DNA of 36,478 nt. Origin: Accumulibacter sp. GTDB lineage: Bacteria > Pseudomonadota > Gammaproteobacteria > Burkholderiales > Rhodocyclaceae. Location of the stretch: assembly GCA_031266435.1 (NCBI GenBank), contig JAISAZ010000037.1, forward strand, positions 1-36,478, given 5' to 3'. Shown here in pieces: positions 3,717 through 33,928 of this stretch; the stretch's first letter is position 1, and each line of letters starts with the position of its first letter. The position numbers and the translations under genes are program-made. The notes beneath the pieces are model-generated. The model did not search any database. It was not told the DNA's origin and saw only the letters and a list, made by a program, of their open reading frames with translations.

Positions 3717-3811
3717 GGCGGGTCCCCTCCGCATTGCAGGGCGGCGAACCTGGTCAGGTCCGGAAGGAAGCAGCCATAGTCGTTTCCGCAAGTGCTGGGG
3801 TCAGGCTCGCC
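3717..3811 (+). ncRNA. ffs: Signal recognition particle RNA (4.5S, small bacterial type)
   Basis: This is the RNA of the bacterial signal recognition particle, which works with Ffh to target membrane proteins co-translationally. The invariant domain IV is plain: GGTCAGGTCCGGAAGGAAGC at 3752-3771, which holds the tetraloop GGAA and the asymmetric internal loop bound by Ffh. The ends pair: GGCGGG (3717-3722) with CTCGCC (3806-3811), and CCCC (3724-3727) with GGGG (3797-3800). A short T-run follows at 3819-3823. GTTAAAGT at 3701-3708 may be the -10 region. The upstream sequence is heptad repeat, and rimO begins 95 bases downstream. Confidence 0.95.
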
Positions 3812-3905
3812 CCTTCGCTTTTTCGCCGTCATCGATCATGCCTTTTTCAAACGCGCCGCACACGCGGGTCGGTCGCCCGATCGCGTCGGCGGCAAGATTT
3901 TTTCC

Positions 3906-20186: not shown

Positions 20187-22142
20187 ATGACTCTTGCTCA
20201 AAAGATCAACGCCTACAGCGAATGGCGCGTGCAGCTTTCGGAGAAACTCGAGGACTTCCGCCGCTGGCTTTCCGAGAGCGACCTGATCGACCCGGAAATC
20301 GACGCCCGTCTGGACCGCGCGCTCGACAAGCTCCGTGAAGATCAACTGCACATCGCCTTCGTCGCCGAGTTCTCGCGCGGGAAGACCGAGCTGATCAACG
20401 CGATTTTTTTCGCGGGCTACGGAAACCGCATGCTTCCCTCGACGGTCGGGCGTACGACGATGTGTCCGACGGAACTCATGTACCGCGAGGAAAAACCGCC
20501 GTCGATCGAGCTTCTTCCGATCAGAACGCGCAGAACGAGCACGCGTATCAGCGAGTACCGGAATTTTCCCGAAGAATGGACGGTTCTGCCGCTCGACATC
20601 GCGTCCCCCGAAGCGCTCCAGGCCGCGTTGCGCTCCGTCAGCGAGACCGAGCGCGTCCCGATCGACCTCGCGCTTCGTCTCGGCTTCGTCGTCAATAACG
20701 ACGACCCCGCCGCCCTGCACGCCGACGACGAAGGACTCGTCGAAATCCCGCACTGGCGCCACGCCGTCATCAATTTCCCGCATCCCCTGCTGAAAAACGG
20801 TCTGGTCATCCTCGACACGCCGGGTTTGAACGCCATCGGCACCGAGCCGGAACTGACGCTTTCGCTGCTTCCCAACGCGCACGCCGTGCTATTCATCCTC
20901 GCTGCCGACACCGGCGTCACGCACTCCGACCTCGCCGTCTGGAACCAGCACATCAGCGTGTCGAGCAACGCGAAACGCGGTCGCCTCGTCGTGCTCAACA
21001 AAATCGACGGACTGTGGGACGACTTGAAGCCGCAATCCGAAATCGACGACGAAATCGCCCGTCAGATCAGCCATTGCGCGCAGACGCTCGACCTGCCCGA
21101 AAATCAGATCTTCCCCGTTTCCGCCAAAAAAGGTCTCATCGCCAAGGTCAATGACGACGACGCCCTCCTGAAGCGGAGCCGCCTTCTCGAACTCGAACAG
21201 GCGCTTTCCGAAAAACTGACGCCCGCGAAGCAGGAAATCGTCCGCGAGAACGTCTACGCCGAGTTTGCCGACATCTTCTCGAACGCGCGCAGACGTTACG
21301 AAACGCGCCTCGACAGCATTCAGGAGCAGATCGGCGAACTCCAGGAACTGCGCGGAAAGAACACCAACGTCGTCGAATACATGATGGGAAAGATCCGTGT
21401 CGAAAAAGAAGAGTTCGAAACGGGTCTCCAGCGCTACTACGCGGCGCGAAGCATCTTTTCAAAACTGACGAACAAGCTGTTTGCCAGCCTCGGAATCGAA
21501 TCCCTGCACACGCTGATCTCGGCGACGCGCGTATCGATGGACCACGCCAAATTCTCGAACCTGCTTTCGCTGGCGATGGACAATTTCTTCAGCGCTCTGC
21601 GCAGCAACCTCGCCCACTCCGAAACCGAAATCAACGAAATCCAGGCGATGATCGAAGCCGTCTATAAAAAATTCCTCGTCGAATACGGCCTCAAGCTGGG
21701 GACGCCGAAGAGCTTCTCGCTGATGCGTTGCGCCAAGGCGATCGACCACCTCGAAGTCTGGTGCAATACAAACATCAACAACAGGTTCCGGCTCATGACC
21801 AGCGACAAAGAGCGCGTCATCCGGGTCTTTTTCGACGAGGTCGCCGCGCAGACGCGACGGAGCTTCGAGCGCGCCAATCTGGACGCCGAAATGTGGCTGA
21901 AGTCGATCATGTCTCCGCTCGAAAACCAGGTCCGCGAGCACCAGATTCAGATCAAGCGCCGGCTGGAAAGTTTGAAACGCATTCATCAGGCGACCGACAC
22001 GCTCGAAGAGCGGATCAACGAACTCGAACACGTCAAATCCGACCTGCTCGCGCAGATCAATTCGCTCAACCGCATGGGGCAGGGCGTTCTCGACGCGATG
22101 AACGCAACGCCCGCACCTGCTGAGGACGCCGAAGCGGCCTGA
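20187..22142 (+). CDS. Dynamin-like GTPase
   Basis: This 651-residue protein is a bacterial dynamin-family GTPase. The P-loop is VAEFSRGKTELINAIF (GKT near residue 66). A threonine-rich switch I follows (TVGRTTMCPTELMY). Switch II/G3 is LDTPGLNAIGTEPE (D near 210) and G4 is VLNKIDGLWDD (N near 271). The second half is long and helical, with EEQIGELQELRG-type stretches and a final coiled coil (TLEERINELEHVKSDLLAQI). No membrane segment is obvious, so membrane contact would be peripheral. Relatives remodel membranes; some take part in envelope stress or phage defence. It stands alone with its own terminator region, and a Correia-like element begins at its stop codon. Confidence 0.88.
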   Translation: MTLAQKINAYSEWRVQLSEKLEDFRRWLSESDLIDPEIDARLDRALDKLREDQLHIAFVAEFSRGKTELINAIFFAGYGNRMLPSTVGRTTMCPTELMYREEKPPSIELLPIRTRRTSTRISEYRNFPEEWTVLPLDIASPEALQAALRSVSETERVPIDLALRLGFVVNNDDPAALHADDEGLVEIPHWRHAVINFPHPLLKNGLVILDTPGLNAIGTEPELTLSLLPNAHAVLFILAADTGVTHSDLAVWNQHISVSSNAKRGRLVVLNKIDGLWDDLKPQSEIDDEIARQISHCAQTLDLPENQIFPVSAKKGLIAKVNDDDALLKRSRLLELEQALSEKLTPAKQEIVRENVYAEFADIFSNARRRYETRLDSIQEQIGELQELRGKNTNVVEYMMGKIRVEKEEFETGLQRYYAARSIFSKLTNKLFASLGIESLHTLISATRVSMDHAKFSNLLSLAMDNFFSALRSNLAHSETEINEIQAMIEAVYKKFLVEYGLKLGTPKSFSLMRCAKAIDHLEVWCNTNINNRFRLMTSDKERVIRVFFDEVAAQTRRSFERANLDAEMWLKSIMSPLENQVREHQIQIKRRLESLKRIHQATDTLEERINELEHVKSDLLAQINSLNRMGQGVLDAMNATPAPAEDAEAA

Positions 22143-22244
22143 TTCCTTTCCCAGTCCATCCCTGCCATCGTCGACTTCGCCTTGCCGTACTACTTGTACT
22201 GTCTGCGGCTCGTCTTCTCGCCATGAATGAACTGGAAAAGGAAT
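22142..22244. mobile_element. Correia-like MITE, full copy 1
   Basis: About 103 bases are bounded by imperfect terminal inverted repeats of 25 bases: ATTCCTTTCCCAGTCCATCC at the left, and on the right a sequence whose complement is ATTCCTTTTCCAGTTCATTC. The core holds CGCCTTGCCGTAC (22169-22181) then TACTTGTACTGTCTGCGGCT (22191-22210). From memory this is nearly the same as the core of the Neisseria Correia element, whose ends are different. TGA flanks both sides (22140-22142 and 22244-22246), a possible target duplication. No coding capacity. Confidence 0.75.
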
Positions 22245-22280
22245 GACCGCCGCGTGCGAACCTTAAAGCCAAGTCAACCC

Positions 22281-22310
22281 GGCAAAAAGGCGGGTTTTAC
22301 TTTTTGACGG
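22281..22310. terminator. AAAAAG/CTTTTT hairpin, second family member
   Basis: CCGGCAAAAAG and CTTTTTGACGG nearly pair around GCGGGTTTTA. It is closely related to the hairpin at 6672-6701. It lies downstream of the dynamin-like gene and could stop transcription in either direction. Confidence 0.55.
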
Positions 22311-22348: not shown

Positions 22349-22409
22349 GAAAGGAAAAGCAAAAGAAAGAGAACTCCAAGGTCGGACTGGTTTGGCGTTG
22401 TTTTTACAT

Positions 22410-22442
22410 GGTTTGAAGGTGGGCTTTGCTCACCTTCAAACC
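22410..22442. repeat. Twelve-base hairpin GGTTTGAAGGTG / CACCTTCAAACC
   Basis: A perfect stem (22410-22421 with 22431-22442) closes a nine-base loop GGCTTTGCT. It has no T-run, so it is more likely a structural or protein-binding element than a classical terminator. Confidence 0.6.
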
Positions 22443-22452
22443 CAAATCAACC

Positions 22453-22482
22453 CGGCAAAAAGTAGGGTTTTACTTTTTGACG
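22453..22482. terminator. AAAAAG/CTTTTT hairpin, third family member
   Basis: CGGCAAAAAG and CTTTTTGACG nearly pair around TAGGGTTTTA, twelve bases beyond the stop of dprE2. On the minus strand it would end the gtrA-dprE1-dprE2 transcript. Confidence 0.6.
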
Positions 22483-22493
22483 ATTCCTAAGCG

Positions 22494-23249
22494 CTAGATA
22501 TTGAGTCTGTAAAAGACGAAGTCGGGCAGGCAGCGCAGGGCGCGCATGACGAGCGACCAGTGGCAGGGGGCGTAGACGACGCCCCGACCCTTGTCGATCG
22601 CATTCACGATCCGGCGCGCGACGCCGGCGGCGGGGGCGAGCGAAGCGCCTTCGGCGCGTAGGCGCGCGGTCATCGGCGTATCCGTCGGGCCGGGTTTGAC
22701 GAGTACGACCCGGATCTTCGTTCCGTAAAAACGGTGTTGCAGACCCTGCGCGTAACGGTCGATCAAGCCTTTTGCCGACCCGTAGACGTAGTTGGACTTG
22801 CGACCGCGATCGCCGGCGACCGACCCGATCAGCGCGATCGTCGCTTCGCGGTTCTCGTCCATCGCTCCGGCGAAAGCCTCGGCGAACAGCACGGGGGATA
22901 CGCCGTTGACTTCGAGCGTCTCCCGGCAGAGCGCGAGGTCGGTCTGGCACGCATCCTGCAAGGGCAGGGCGCCGTGGGCGATCAGCACGATGTCGATCGG
23001 TTCCTGCGCGATCGACGCGACGGTCGATGCGATTTCTTCGGTATCGAGGAAATCGAGTTGCACGATGCGAATGTCGGAAGCCGAACCTCGTACCCTCAAG
23101 TCGGAGGCCACGTGTTCGAGCTTCGCGGCGTCGCGCCCGACCAGAACCAAGTCTGTTGGCCCGCGTTGCGCCCATATCCGCGCGCAGTGTCCGGCGATCG
23201 CCGAAGTGGCGCCGACGACGACTATCCTTCTCCTCTCTTCTTCTTCCAC
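22494..23249 (-). CDS. dprE2: SDR reductase, DprE2-like (2-keto epimerisation intermediate reductase)
   Basis: This 251-residue short-chain dehydrogenase fits DprE2, which reduces decaprenylphosphoryl-2-keto-ribose to the arabinose epimer. The NAD(P)H motif is IVVVGATSAIAGHCARIWAQ, of the ATSAIA type seen in DprE2. The catalytic residues are Ser143 (IALIGSVAGDRGR) and Tyr156-x3-Lys160 (YVYGSAKGLIDRYAQGL). A C-terminal hydrophobic stretch (MRALRCLPDFVFYRLNI) may dock at the membrane. The start is GTG 23249, one base after the dprE1 stop. Its DprE2 role rests on the adjacent dprE1, gtrA and the divergent ubiA homologue. The lipid carrier may be a shorter polyprenol in a proteobacterium. Confidence 0.85.
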   Translation of the reverse strand: MEEEERRRIVVVGATSAIAGHCARIWAQRGPTDLVLVGRDAAKLEHVASDLRVRGSASDIRIVQLDFLDTEEIASTVASIAQEPIDIVLIAHGALPLQDACQTDLALCRETLEVNGVSPVLFAEAFAGAMDENREATIALIGSVAGDRGRKSNYVYGSAKGLIDRYAQGLQHRFYGTKIRVVLVKPGPTDTPMTARLRAEGASLAPAAGVARRIVNAIDKGRGVVYAPCHWSLVMRALRCLPDFVFYRLNI

Positions 23250-23250
23250 T

Positions 23251-24546
23251 TCATATTCCCATCAAACGGCGCGAGAGGCCGGAACTGATCCCGGCGTCGC
23301 GGTATTTCAGAAATTCCTCCACACGCGGGTAGCCGGCCTCGAACAGGGCTTTGGGCATGCGCGCGTCCTTTGCGGGGTAGAGCCGCCCCCCGGCGTTCTT
23401 GACGATCGCGTCGAGCTTTTCGAACAGGCGTTGCGTCCTCTCGCCCCGGCTGGGGAAATCCATCGCGAGCGTGACGCCCGGACGCGGAAAACTCATCATC
23501 CCGAGCGCGTCGCGCGCGCCGAAGGTTTTCAGTACCGCGAGGAAGGAACCTTCCTGCGCCAGGACGATCTCGTTCAGCGCGGCCTGGACGGCGTCCTTTC
23601 CGGTTTCGCGCGGAACGACGAGCTGGTATTGGAAAAATCCCGAAGGCCCGTAGATCCGGTTCCATTCGCGGATGCAGTCGAGCGGGTAGAGGAAGGCGTC
23701 GCAATGCGTGACGCTCCGTCCGGCGCGGCGTTTCCTGAATTCATAATACGCCGAGTTGAAGCAGCGCATCGCCAGCGGGTTCGCCAGGGAAAACGGCGGC
23801 GTAAACGGAACCGAGACGGCCCAGGCGCGAGGCTCGCGCTGGAAGGCTTCGACCGGATTGGCGCGCAGGAAGATTCCGCGACCGAATTTTCCAGAGAGTC
23901 CATCGACCCACGAAACCGTGTGTTCCCATTCCGCCTCGGAAGCGTCGGCGAGTTCGAAGAACTCGTCGAGGTTTTCGTAGGGGATCGTTTCCGCGTCGAG
24001 CCAGGGTCCCTTGATCGGCTTCAGGCGGATGTCGGCATCGACGATCACGCCCGTCAAGCCCATTCCGCCGACCGTCGCCGCGAACCAGTCGGGCTGAAGT
24101 TCGGGGCCGGCTTCGATCGTCTCGCCGTCGGTACGGATCAGACGGACACGGCGAACGTGGTCGCCGAAAGACCCTTCGACGTGATGGTTCTTGCCGTGAA
24201 CGTCGTTTGCGATCGCGCCACCGACGGTGATTTGCAACGTTCCCGGCGTTACCGGCAAGGTCCAGCCGCGCGGGATGAAGATTTTCTGAATCTCTTCAAG
24301 CAGAACGCCGGCCTCGCAGGTCAAAACGCCCGTCTCTTCGTCGAAGGCGATGAAGCGGTCGAGGCCGGTCGTCACCCACAACAAGCCGCCGGGGTTCAGG
24401 CAGACATCGCCGTAACTGCGCCCCATCCCGTAGGCGATTCCCGGATTTTTCCTCGACAGGATATCGCCGACGCTCCCGGCGTCGTAAAGACCGACGAGCT
24501 GATGAAAATGCGCGTCGAGCCGCCCCCACGACGAGACCGGCTTCAT
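23251..24546 (-). CDS. dprE1: FAD-linked oxidase, DprE1-like (polyprenylphosphoryl-ribose oxidase)
   Basis: DprE1 oxidises the 2'-hydroxyl of polyprenylphosphoryl-ribose, the first step of epimerisation to polyprenylphosphoryl-arabinose. The 431-residue protein shows GMGRSYGDVCLNPGG (40-54) and the diagnostic GGAIANDVHGKNHHVEGSFG, with HGKNHH at 117-122. The C-terminus aligns with mycobacterial DprE1 through SFPRPGVTLAMDFP, GGRLYPAKDAR (Lys393, equivalent to the active-site Lys) and YPRVEEF. The position of the benzothiazinone-target Cys387 appears to be Ala361. The start overlaps the gtrA stop (ATGA). The order gtrA-dprE1-dprE2 matches the mycobacterial Rv3789-Rv3790-Rv3791 cluster. Confidence 0.9.
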   Translation of the reverse strand: MKPVSSWGRLDAHFHQLVGLYDAGSVGDILSRKNPGIAYGMGRSYGDVCLNPGGLLWVTTGLDRFIAFDEETGVLTCEAGVLLEEIQKIFIPRGWTLPVTPGTLQITVGGAIANDVHGKNHHVEGSFGDHVRRVRLIRTDGETIEAGPELQPDWFAATVGGMGLTGVIVDADIRLKPIKGPWLDAETIPYENLDEFFELADASEAEWEHTVSWVDGLSGKFGRGIFLRANPVEAFQREPRAWAVSVPFTPPFSLANPLAMRCFNSAYYEFRKRRAGRSVTHCDAFLYPLDCIREWNRIYGPSGFFQYQLVVPRETGKDAVQAALNEIVLAQEGSFLAVLKTFGARDALGMMSFPRPGVTLAMDFPSRGERTQRLFEKLDAIVKNAGGRLYPAKDARMPKALFEAGYPRVEEFLKYRDAGISSGLSRRLMGI

Positions 24547-24959
24547 GCTTGCCTCACGTTGAAAACGTAACGCTTGTCGAGCCGATATTTGCTGAAATAC
24601 CCGATCGCCAGACCGATGATTGCGCCGAGGTATCGCATTTCCTTCGTCCTGAAAAAGAAATGAAAGGCCAATTCACTCCCCCAGAAAATTGCCGTCGTCG
24701 CGACGCCCGTCAAGGCGTAGAACGCGAATACTTGCCCATCGTGCGCGACACTGCGCGGCGTAAAACGGAAAATATAGCGCTTGTCGAGAAAATATTTGAC
24801 GACAAGACCGACCACCGTGCCGACGGCGATCGAAATCTGAATGCTGAATACACCGTTCCAGCAACGGACGACGGCATCCTGCGCCGCGATGTTCGCCGCC
24901 GTCGCAATTAATGCGAAAATAACATAAGCTGTCGTTTGTTTCATCGAATGCCGCGTCAT
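24543..24959 (-). CDS. GtrA-family membrane protein
   Basis: This 138-residue protein has four predicted membrane segments (TTAYVIFALIATAANIAAQD, SIAVGTVVGLVVKYFLD, YALTGVATTAIFWGSELAFHF, LGAIIGLAIGYFSKYRLD). It carries the GtrA repeats KYFLDKRYIF and KYRLDKRYVF. Such proteins are proposed to move or anchor lipid-linked sugars. The homologue beside mycobacterial dprE1 (Rv3789) is linked to arabinan assembly. The two matching KYxLDKRYxF halves are an internal repeat. ATG 24944 (MKQTTAYVIF) is an alternative start that would shorten it by five residues; neither start has a clear ribosome binding site. It is the first gene of the dpr operon. Confidence 0.85.
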   Translation of the reverse strand: MTRHSMKQTTAYVIFALIATAANIAAQDAVVRCWNGVFSIQISIAVGTVVGLVVKYFLDKRYIFRFTPRSVAHDGQVFAFYALTGVATTAIFWGSELAFHFFFRTKEMRYLGAIIGLAIGYFSKYRLDKRYVFNVRQA

Positions 24960-31751: not shown

Positions 31752-31838
31752 GTTGAAGGCGTTTCCCGGCGCGTCGTGAAACCCTTGCCTGAACGGCGAG
31801 AATCGCGTCGGGTGTCACGGGCGGGGTTTCCGGTCTCA
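31752..31838. other. Gap between the nuclease-like gene and the Correia-like element
   Basis: Nothing recognisable is present except the short GC-rich sequence GGGTGTCACGGGCGGGG before the element. Confidence 0.4.
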
Positions 31839-31942
31839 TTTCCATTTCCAGTTCCCCCCACCCTCTGTCGACTTCGCCTTGTGGCACGAGAAGACCTGTG
31901 AAGCGGCTCGGCATCAAAGCATGAATGAACTGGAAAAGGAGT
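31839..31942. mobile_element. Correia-like MITE, full copy 2 (diverged core)
   Basis: About 104 bases have the same terminal inverted repeats as copy 1: TTTCCATTTCCAGTTC at the left, and ATGAATGAACTGGAAAAGGA at the right, identical to copy 1 over 20 bases. TGTCGACTTCGCCTTG (31865-31880) is shared with the other copies. The middle differs from copy 1 except for GCGGCTCG. It lies before nlpD. Confidence 0.7.
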
Positions 31943-32072
31943 CAGGAACAAATCTTTTCCCCTAACTTATTGATTCAATACAAAATATTTTATCCGTCGG
32001 ATGCGGTTTTCATCCATGCCTGAAACGTGGCAAAATGGCACAAAATGAAAGCCATTCGGCTTCGGGAATCGG

Positions 32073-32933
32073 ATGATGAATATTTACGCCAAACTGCTCT
32101 TCGTTGCCGCGTTTCTGTCCGCCTTGTCCGGGTGCGTCGACCAGCCGCCCGCGCCGGTGGTCGGACCGGGCGACCAGCCGTCGTCGACGGTGCCGCAGAA
32201 TATCTACGTCGTCAAACGCGGCGATACGCTCTACAGCATTTCCCGCGAATACGGACTCAACCCCCGCGAACTCGCCGCCGCCAACAATATTGAAAACCCG
32301 GACCAGCTCGCGGTCGGGCAGACGCTGAAAATACCGGTCGCGCCCGCGACAGCGCCTGCGGCGGTCGCCGAGCCGGTCGGTACCGAAACGGCCACGGTCG
32401 AGTCACGACCTCTGGATGGCTCCGGGGCGCCTGCGGCGACCGCTGCGCTCAAGACCGAACCGAAAGCCGGGAAAGAGGCGTACTCCGACGAGGCGTTGGC
32501 AAAAGCGCGCGGGGGAAGCGGCGAGACGAAAACGGAGGCGACGCCGGCGGTCGCCGTCGAAGAAAGCCGCTGGGCATGGCCCGCCGACGGAAAAATCCTT
32601 CAGAATTACAACGGAAACGACAACAAGGGGATCGATATCGGCGGGCGCATCGGCGCGCCGATCGCCGCTGCGGAAGCAGGGCGGGTGATTCTCGTCAGCA
32701 ATACGCTTCGCGGCTACGGCAATATGGTCATCGTCAGCCACGGCGCGAAATTGGTGACCGTTTATGCGCACAACAGCAAGATTTTGGTCAAGGAGAAGCA
32801 ATCGGTTTCACGTGGGCAGAAAATAGCGGAAATGGGTCGAACCGAGACCGGAAAGGTCATACTTCATTTTGAAGTCCGCAATAACGGTCAGGCGCTCGAT
32901 CCGCTCAAATATCTGCCTGCGCGCGCACAGTGA
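32073..32933 (+). CDS. nlpD: NlpD-like LysM/M23 lipoprotein (amidase activator)
   Basis: NlpD is an outer-membrane lipoprotein that activates the amidase AmiC during cell separation. The 286-residue protein has the signal [20 protein letters not shown] with lipobox LSGC (Cys21). One LysM domain lies at about 44-88 ([20 protein letters not shown]). An Ala/Pro-rich linker follows, then a C-terminal M23-type domain ([20 protein letters not shown] onward). The catalytic His of active M23 peptidases is replaced: GIDIGG stands where HxxxD is expected. This is normal for NlpD-type proteins, which do not cleave themselves. The gene overlaps rpoS by four bases, the arrangement usual in proteobacteria. 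An rpoS promoter often lies inside nlpD. Confidence 0.93.
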
Positions 32934-33877
32934 GCATGTCCGAATTTGGCGCTTCCGAGGAAAACGAAGCGCCGGAAACGTGGGCGGCGCTCGACGGCGA
33001 GTCTGAATCGCCGCCGGAGGGTTCTCTTGCGCCCGAACTCGGTTTGCTCAACGACGTAACGCAGTACTACCTCAACGAAATCGGCGCGAAGCCGCTGTTT
33101 TCCCCCAAGGAAGAATTCGAGTGCGCCAGCCTTGCGCGCAAGGGGGACTTCGATGCGCGTCAAAAAATGATCGAGCATAACCTGCGCCTCGTCGTCAATA
33201 TCGCCAAACACTACCTGAACCACGGAATTCCGCTGATCGACCTGATCGAGGAGGGCAACCTCGGACTGATTCGCGCGATCGAAAAATTCGATCCCTCGCG
33301 CGGTTTCCGCTTTTCGACCTACGCGACGTGGTGGATTCGCCAGGGTATCGAACGCGCGATCGCAAACGAGGCGCGAACGGTTCGGCTCCCCGCGCATATT
33401 TCACGCGAAATCAGCCTGATCACGAAGGCGCTCCGCCATCTCGAGGCGGAAACGGGGAAAAAACCTTCGCTGGAACAGGTCGCGCACCTGGCCGATTGCT
33501 CGATCGAGGAGGTTCGCCGCGCGCTCTCGCTCAGCGAGCACGAGGTTTCGCTCGACACGCCGATCAACGCCGACGACCCAAAGCATACGATCGTCGATGC
33601 GATCGTAGACGACGCCGCGAACGGCCCGGAAGATACTTTCCGCCTCCGCGAGGTGATCCGCCTCGTCAATCAATGGGTCACGGAACTGCCGGAGAAGCAG
33701 CGCGTCGTGTTGTCGCGGCGCTACGGTCTGGACGGCACGGAACCCGGAACCTTCGACGAAGTCTCCGCCGAACTCGGCTTGACGCGCGAGCGCGTCCGCC
33801 AGATTCAGATCGAAGCGATCGGTCGCCTCCGCCGCGCGATCAAGCACGGCGGGCTGACGCCGGAAAACCTTTCCTGA
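32930..33877 (+). CDS. rpoS: Stationary-phase sigma factor RpoS
   Basis: RpoS directs RNA polymerase to general stress and stationary-phase promoters. The 315-residue protein shows region 1.2 ([20 protein letters not shown]), region 2 ([20 protein letters not shown], then [20 protein letters not shown]), region 3 ([20 protein letters not shown]) and region 4 ([20 protein letters not shown], then [20 protein letters not shown]). The GTG at 32930 overlaps nlpD (GTGA), but ATG 32936 two codons on is an equally good start. The position directly after nlpD makes the assignment safe. A truncated Correia-like element begins just after the stop. Confidence 0.96.
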
Positions 33878-33920
33878 TTCCCTTTTCGAGAATCGCCCCG
33901 CTCGACTTCGCCTTGCCGTA
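33878..33920. mobile_element. Truncated Correia-like MITE, copy 3
   Basis: Right after the rpoS stop comes TTCCCTTTTCGAGAATCG, then CTCGACTTCGCCTTGCCGTAC (33900-33920). This corresponds to the left end and half the core of copy 1, with about the same spacing. The right half is missing, replaced by the end of the minus-strand helicase gene. The break near 33920 may mark where that block was inserted. Confidence 0.6.
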
Positions 33921-33928
33921 CCGCTATT

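Follow-up and report, generated by a model that had tools for sequence, protein, structure and literature searches.

The stretch of DNA analysed here, the window, is 36,478 nucleotides long (contig C28 in a genome assembly of Accumulibacter sp. that totals 2.66 Mb in 121 contigs and is 95.77% complete), and it raises the question of what a core close to that of the Neisseria Correia element (CREE, nemis) is doing between ends of a different kind. The preliminary description listed three copies of a Correia-like MITE; all three are real, two as full elements and one as a left half, whereas a Correia core common to them is not. Sequence and alignment identify copy 1 (22142..22244, + strand) as a full element with ATTCC...GGAAT ends and a Correia-type core, and the TGA noted on both of its sides is present (22140-22142 and 22244-22246, both +) as the two halves of a target duplication, the left one being the stop codon of a dynamin-like gene (20187-22142). 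Copy 2 (31839..31941, +), flanked on each side by TCA (31836-31838 and 31942-31944), is also full and carries a second core variant (CGGCAC... / ...CTGTGAAGCGGC type) without the Correia core. The sequence TCGACTTCGCCTTG, at up to two mismatches, matched the window five times, three of them exactly (shuffles: mean 0.64, largest 3). The idea that the family tunes neighbours such as rpoS found no support: just a half element, copy 3 (about 33877..33921, +; left half only), lies 3' of an rpoS-like gene (32930-33877), in whose stop codon it begins, and copy 2 has an SNase-domain gene on one side and a LysM/M23 (nlpD-like) gene on the other. Promoters of the CREE type, also proposed, did not appear either, as a simple consensus scan of 401-base stretches around copies 1 and 2 found no sigma-70-like site.

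Other features of the window can be recorded here. A 45-nt direct repeat of terminator-like hairpin sequence, 91% identical, lies just 3' of copy 1 (22265-22309 and 22438-22482), and a second repeat behind copy 1, AGAGAACTCCAAGG(C/T)CGGACTGG (22368-22390), also adjoins another element copy in the own and sister genomes (L080:310-332; L351:15843-15865; for this repeat L082, L277 and L001 are one place). Positions 3717-3814 (+) match the bacterial small SRP RNA (RF00169, 70.5 bits).

Well over 100 copies of the palindromic element, each of ~100 bp, are present in the genome. The sequence CGACTTCGCCTTG matched it 127 times at up to one mismatch, against 5 for the reversed control, and the end TTCCTTTTCCAGTTCATTC matched 227 times at up to three mismatches, against 2 for its control; a typical full copy reads ATTCC(A/T)TTTCCAGTTCATCCC ... 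ATGAATGAACTGGAAAAGGAAT, with a length of about 97-105 bp. After removal of duplicates, 84 places remained, of which the 61 with both exact ends were used and 23 dropped. Identical 3-mers flank 41 of these 61 full copies (TGA 26, TCA 13, TTA 1 and TAA 1; type TNA), whereas 10,000 permutations of the right flanks produced 20.8 identical pairs on average and never more than 33. Because the flanking repeat is direct rather than inverted, it does not simply continue the inverted repeat but represents a duplication of the target. Comparing 13 sites with 288 kb of a sister genome (G024) revealed unoccupied sites with a single TGA (L014 and L044) or a single TCA (one site of L045). Three more full copies (L028, L099 and that at the remaining L045 site) are likewise absent from the matching place, as is a truncated copy (the second element of L014), and the junctions there have diverged; four sites (L057, L105, L025 and L080) are occupied in both genomes, and two (L026 and L102) are complex. 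With terminal inverted repeats, target duplications and empty sites, the element belongs to the MITE class, as proposed, and is non-autonomous and mobile.

Among 91 distinct full copies, 50 carry a Correia-type core in both halves and 17 have variant B in both; a further 15 are mosaics, and the other 9 could be classed on one side at most. Copies without the Correia-type core have thus spread in this genome, indicating that the core is not needed for transposition there. The mosaics join halves of the two core variants, as if modules had been swapped between copies. One copy in the own genome, L064 (G000:C5), combines a Correia-type core with quite different, fully complementary arms (ATTCCGCTTGCAAACCG...) and TAA/TGA flanks.

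We compared the copies in the window with a Correia reference, locus L152 (G078), whose sequence TATAGTGGATTAAATTTAAACCAGTAC identifies it as a Correia element when the search pattern of PMC2649163 is applied and one mismatch allowed. Copy 1 agrees with the L152 core at 37 of 39 positions, with a local score of 32 against a largest value of 14 in 1000 shuffles, so that its similarity to Correia is significant. The likeness attributed to the other listed copies is weak in copy 3 (14 nt, score 14 against a shuffle maximum of 12, which is marginal) and absent from copy 2 (score 9, below the shuffle maximum of 12). The ends are unlike those of Correia, as had been observed: CREE begins TATAGTGGATTAA... 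and the window family ATTCC(A/T)TTTCCAGTTC..., arm-to-arm alignments score 5 and 3, and the 26-bp Correia repeat ends TATAG[CT]GGATTAA... are not found. Moreover, the target site of CREE is TA in the portion of PMC2649163 available. Since both ends and target site differ, copy 1 is not a CREE, and membership of that family is refuted. That a true CREE was carried over from Neisseria is accordingly very improbable: the core identity of 37/39 is what one would expect of such a transfer, but the different ends, the TNA rather than TA target, the other host and the recurrence of the core with other ends in many genera all speak against it.

This recurrence is broad. Searched order-wide at up to three mismatches, CCGTACTAYTTGTACTGTCTGCGGCT was found in 41 of 399 genomes and 21 of 159 genera, against 0 for the control, and one exact core pattern gave at least 102 matching stretches in named genomes. 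Hosts among the matches listed are Neisseria, Cupriavidus, Ralstonia, Vogesella, Chitiniphilus, Andreprevotia, Aquitalea, Crenobacter, Pseudogulbenkiania, Acidovorax, Methylotenera, Oxalobacteraceae, Uliginosibacterium and three Pseudomonas species. The cores lie within palindromes of unrelated arms, including GAGCCGCTAACAAAACC, GAGGTCGTTTCAAAAAG, TATAGTGAAACAAAATAG and TATAGCGGATTAACTTAAC, beside ATTCC in the own genome. A covariance model matched at least four of 369 genomes of the class (the own, one of the same order and two others), a lower bound given strict filters and just 17 candidates scored per genome. Four plasmid records, from Eleftheria terrae and Cupriavidus metallidurans, matched a query consisting of a partial element plus flank; phage sequences gave no element match. 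One locus, L135 (G242:C11:56595-56950), is a tandem array of four core matches at 110 bp spacing that resembles the tandem arrays of the betaproteobacterial repeat element (BRE), and tandem core elements also occur at L177. At L116 (G058), two oppositely oriented core elements ~1 kb apart have two TPP riboswitch matches in their vicinity.

If the arms differ by host, where do they come from? The preliminary description suggested searching for a full-length transposon with the same ends, and none with ATTCC-type ends turned up in the own genome or its genus. The 20 sites with the end sequence apart from a core, among the matches listed, are all short or truncated elements; four PF01609 loci of the own genome and one in G024 were rejected as autonomous partner, being without ATTCC ends. 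The genus was covered by 28 genomes, of which only G000 (189 matches) and G024 (72) are rich in the arm pattern; the other 26 have 0-7 matches, near controls. Repeats of the REP/REPIN type, which depend on a Y1 (RAYT) transposase for their movement, are likewise short palindromes at high copy, but such an origin is hardly credible here, as Y1_Tnp (PF01797) has 0 matches in the own genome (95.77% complete) and the target duplication is 3 bp, which Y1 enzymes are not known to make.

Another host provides a lead. Neisseriaceae bacterium JH1-16 (G798) carries two insertion sequences (IS) of ~870 bp (L296 and L300) with the ends TTAGAGCCGCTAACAAAACC and TCAGAGCCGCTAACAAAACC; two frames of L296 match DUF4096 and DDE_Tnp_1, of the IS5 family, and by inspection the IS interior is unlike the core. 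The short core elements L161 and L222 of the same genome have GAGCCGCTAACAAAACC as their left arm end (L228 and L229 differ once), so that in this host the arms equal the ends of a resident IS5-family element. A comparable IS is present in Andreprevotia lacus (L295, G803). For some IS5-family enzymes a 3-bp TNA duplication is expected, and the target type together with the G798 case suggests that an IS5-type enzyme moves the window family.

The core itself is structured. In copy 1 it occupies 22174..22218 (+), scoring 59.5 bits with covariance model R1 (E 7.4e-12, genome), and contains a GTAC - TACTT - GTAC hairpin (22187..22199, +) between the strands TTGCC (22182-22186, +) and TGTCTGC (22200-22206, +). 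An ungapped alignment of 45 columns, built from 135 candidates reduced to 41 by removing those more than 80% alike, gives the layout stem, TTGCC, GTAC, five-base loop, GTAC, TGTCTGC, stem. The GTAC hairpin is paired in 41 of 41 sequences, and 69.5% of cells pair in the 8-bp stem. In these sequences, which share ancestry, 71 cells are changed on both sides, against 34.7±4.7 in shuffles (0 of 500 reach this value), and the covariation score is 0.294 against 0.126 in shuffled alignments; slid versions of the structure give up to 48 cells and a score of 0.123. Less decisive is the number of pairs changed on both sides (8 against 6.8; 9 of 500 shuffles), and additional types of pair are no more numerous than in shuffles (27 against 24.9; 93 of 500). 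The stem thus covaries while the internal loops and the GTAC hairpin stay nearly constant across genera, which bears out, for structure, the earlier suggestion that the core is conserved. At curated scores, no Rfam family matches the element, either in the window or in 22 loci, and around copy 1, at E≤10, nothing came close to a curated score. The right arms of many non-Neisseria elements hold an unpaired insert that is GCGNAGC-like on the bottom strand (for example AGCGAAGCG); the DNA mini-hairpin d(GCGAAGC) is very stable.

Instead of selection, a mutational process could also produce covariation of this kind, with template switching correcting quasi-palindromes. Palindromes are known to undergo such correction, and the arms, which are long, often perfectly complementary and yet different between copies, would fit it. 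It could make arms covary, yet it would not keep internal loops unpaired: the mispaired TTGCC and TGTCTGC strands should have been erased as well, and they are nearly constant across genera and at the Pseudomonas locus described below. We therefore regard a purely mutational origin of the covariation as distinctly unlikely.

In Pseudomonas the core occupies a fixed position. Within the genus of G593 (Pseudomonas group) it occurs in 23 of 56 genomes, once in 21 and twice in two, and these 25 loci together with three from named Pseudomonas make 28. In 26 of the 28 the core lies 34-41 nt 3' of a pstB-like stop and ahead of a phoU-like start, with its top strand in the operon; the two exceptions are each the second match in their genome. 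Among 20 distinct pstB-phoU sequences, from species that share ancestry and therefore represent few independent events, 33 cells are changed on both sides against 13.7±2.2, and the covariation score is 0.350 against 0.125 (slid versions ≤0.086), with no excess of further pair types over shuffles (8 against 8.2). The TTGCC and TGTCTGC strands are nearly constant at this locus too. The fixed position argues for inheritance under constraint over fresh insertion. Our literature search, which covered few subscription papers, found no RNA structure described for pstB-phoU.

Orientation relative to genes is biased at stop codons. Counting genes of at least 100 codons with a stop within 12 nt of an element, on the basis of rough, ORF-based gene calls (at least one call in the window, 22792-24570 on the + strand, conflicts with a dehydrogenase gene on the opposite strand), abutting genes read the top rather than the bottom strand of the core at a ratio of 19:5 in the own genome (91 elements), 9:0 in the G024 stretches (20 elements; this set overlaps the own one by orthology) and 23:5 in other hosts (89 elements). 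For facing gene ends at any distance to ~400 nt the ratios are 45:44, 15:10 and 45:33, respectively. With varied settings and similar genes collapsed, the bias in other hosts was 17-26 against 2-9 (p 0.0005 to 0.014). Away from stops, duplications in the own genome are nearly balanced between TGA (24) and TCA (19), so target preference does not explain the orientation bias. Strand asymmetry in the mismatches points elsewhere: A.C outnumber G.T mismatches in the arms by 150:19 in the own genome (64:19 without one fixed position) and by 58:18 in other hosts, and number 10:15 in the stem. The A.C excess in the arms would favour pairing of the bottom strand, whereas abutting mRNAs carry the top strand.

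These observations bear on whether the core works in DNA or in RNA. It could be a DNA-level device with no RNA role, serving either as a folded site that a nucleoid protein or transposase binds, or as a spacer by which a long palindrome escapes destruction. The elements are mobile, their arms are under an end-type constraint, and the wobble asymmetry gives no support to the strand found in mRNAs, all as such a device would have it; on the other side stand the orientation bias at stop codons, the vertically kept in-operon copy with its compensatory stem changes, and the many copies in the own genome that spread without a Correia-type core. On balance we hold the DNA-only reading to be unlikely.

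We instead consider it probable that the family consists of a portable, structured core to which IS ends are fitted interchangeably, and that this core acts in transcripts close to the 3' ends of genes. The window family would be one of a superfamily of non-autonomous elements, each with a conserved, folded core of ~45 nt within long complementary arms that vary by host lineage. A transposase would use the arms as its terminal inverted repeats, with, in this family, a 3-bp TNA duplication. The core would be kept for what it does in the transcript, where its likeliest role is that of a structured site, in the 3'-UTR or between cistrons, with an effect on how the mRNA is processed or how stable it is; an effect of this kind, involving RNase III, has been published for Correia elements. 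Such action is suggested by the orientation bias, the position in the pst operon and the RNase III processing of Correia-containing mRNA reported in the text available of PMC10969869. A bolder reading, possible but on the doubtful side, is that a portable structured RNA module extends beyond Neisseria, refitted with the ends of resident IS, spread as MITEs to gene 3' ends in one orientation and domesticated at least once, at pstB-phoU in Pseudomonas, with its loops and GUAC hairpin binding a conserved host factor.

A sequence thought special to Neisseria thus looks like a widely shared portable module, and, if it is one, its function becomes open to study in soil bacteria and by comparison across many genera. 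Ends held in common with resident IS5-family elements offer a testable model for how Correia-type elements are mobilised, and the fixed pst operon copy of some Pseudomonas is a single-copy locus at which the effect of the core could be measured.

Among known systems, the family shares with MITEs in general its short length, terminal inverted repeats, target duplication, empty sites and lack of coding capacity; a structured core common to many genera with unrelated ends is, to our knowledge, unusual for them. The IS5-family IS of G798 has TNA-type flanks and ends equal to the arms of the core elements in the same host, but it is ~870 bp long, encodes a transposase, by inspection lacks the core, and has ends unlike those of the window family.

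CREE is closer in build, at 107 bp (L152) against 101-103 bp, both being palindromic, non-coding and of high copy. It differs in host, in ends and in its TA target as against the 3-bp TNA duplication, and about half of the sampled window-family copies carry another or mosaic core, unlike CREE. In the available portions of the work compared (PMC3110155, PMC2649163, PMC10969869, PMC5039591 and PMC2267715), two papers, one of them PMC2649163, term the Correia element Neisseria-specific, and a search in N. meningitidis recovered just the central 46-bp NEMIS core (PMC2267715). Among the papers listed by the literature search, which covered few subscription papers, none tied Correia to other genera, and a text search with core strings matched Neisseria papers and unrelated ones.

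A last comparison concerns priority. The element may be identical with BRE, which is known from Bordetella, Polaromonas, Delftia, Acidovorax and others, with only the Correia link being new, a serious possibility that we place somewhat below even. The two are similar in size (~90 bp for BRE), belong to the same host order, have Acidovorax in common and form tandem copies in some genomes, and one BRE copy lies in an expressed sRNA region, all according to the available text of PMC3110155, in which BRE is not tied to Correia. The likeness, drawn by comparison of descriptions only, lies in size class, host order and tandem copies. BRE (2011) may therefore belong to the superfamily, and part of the wide distribution reported here may be in print already.
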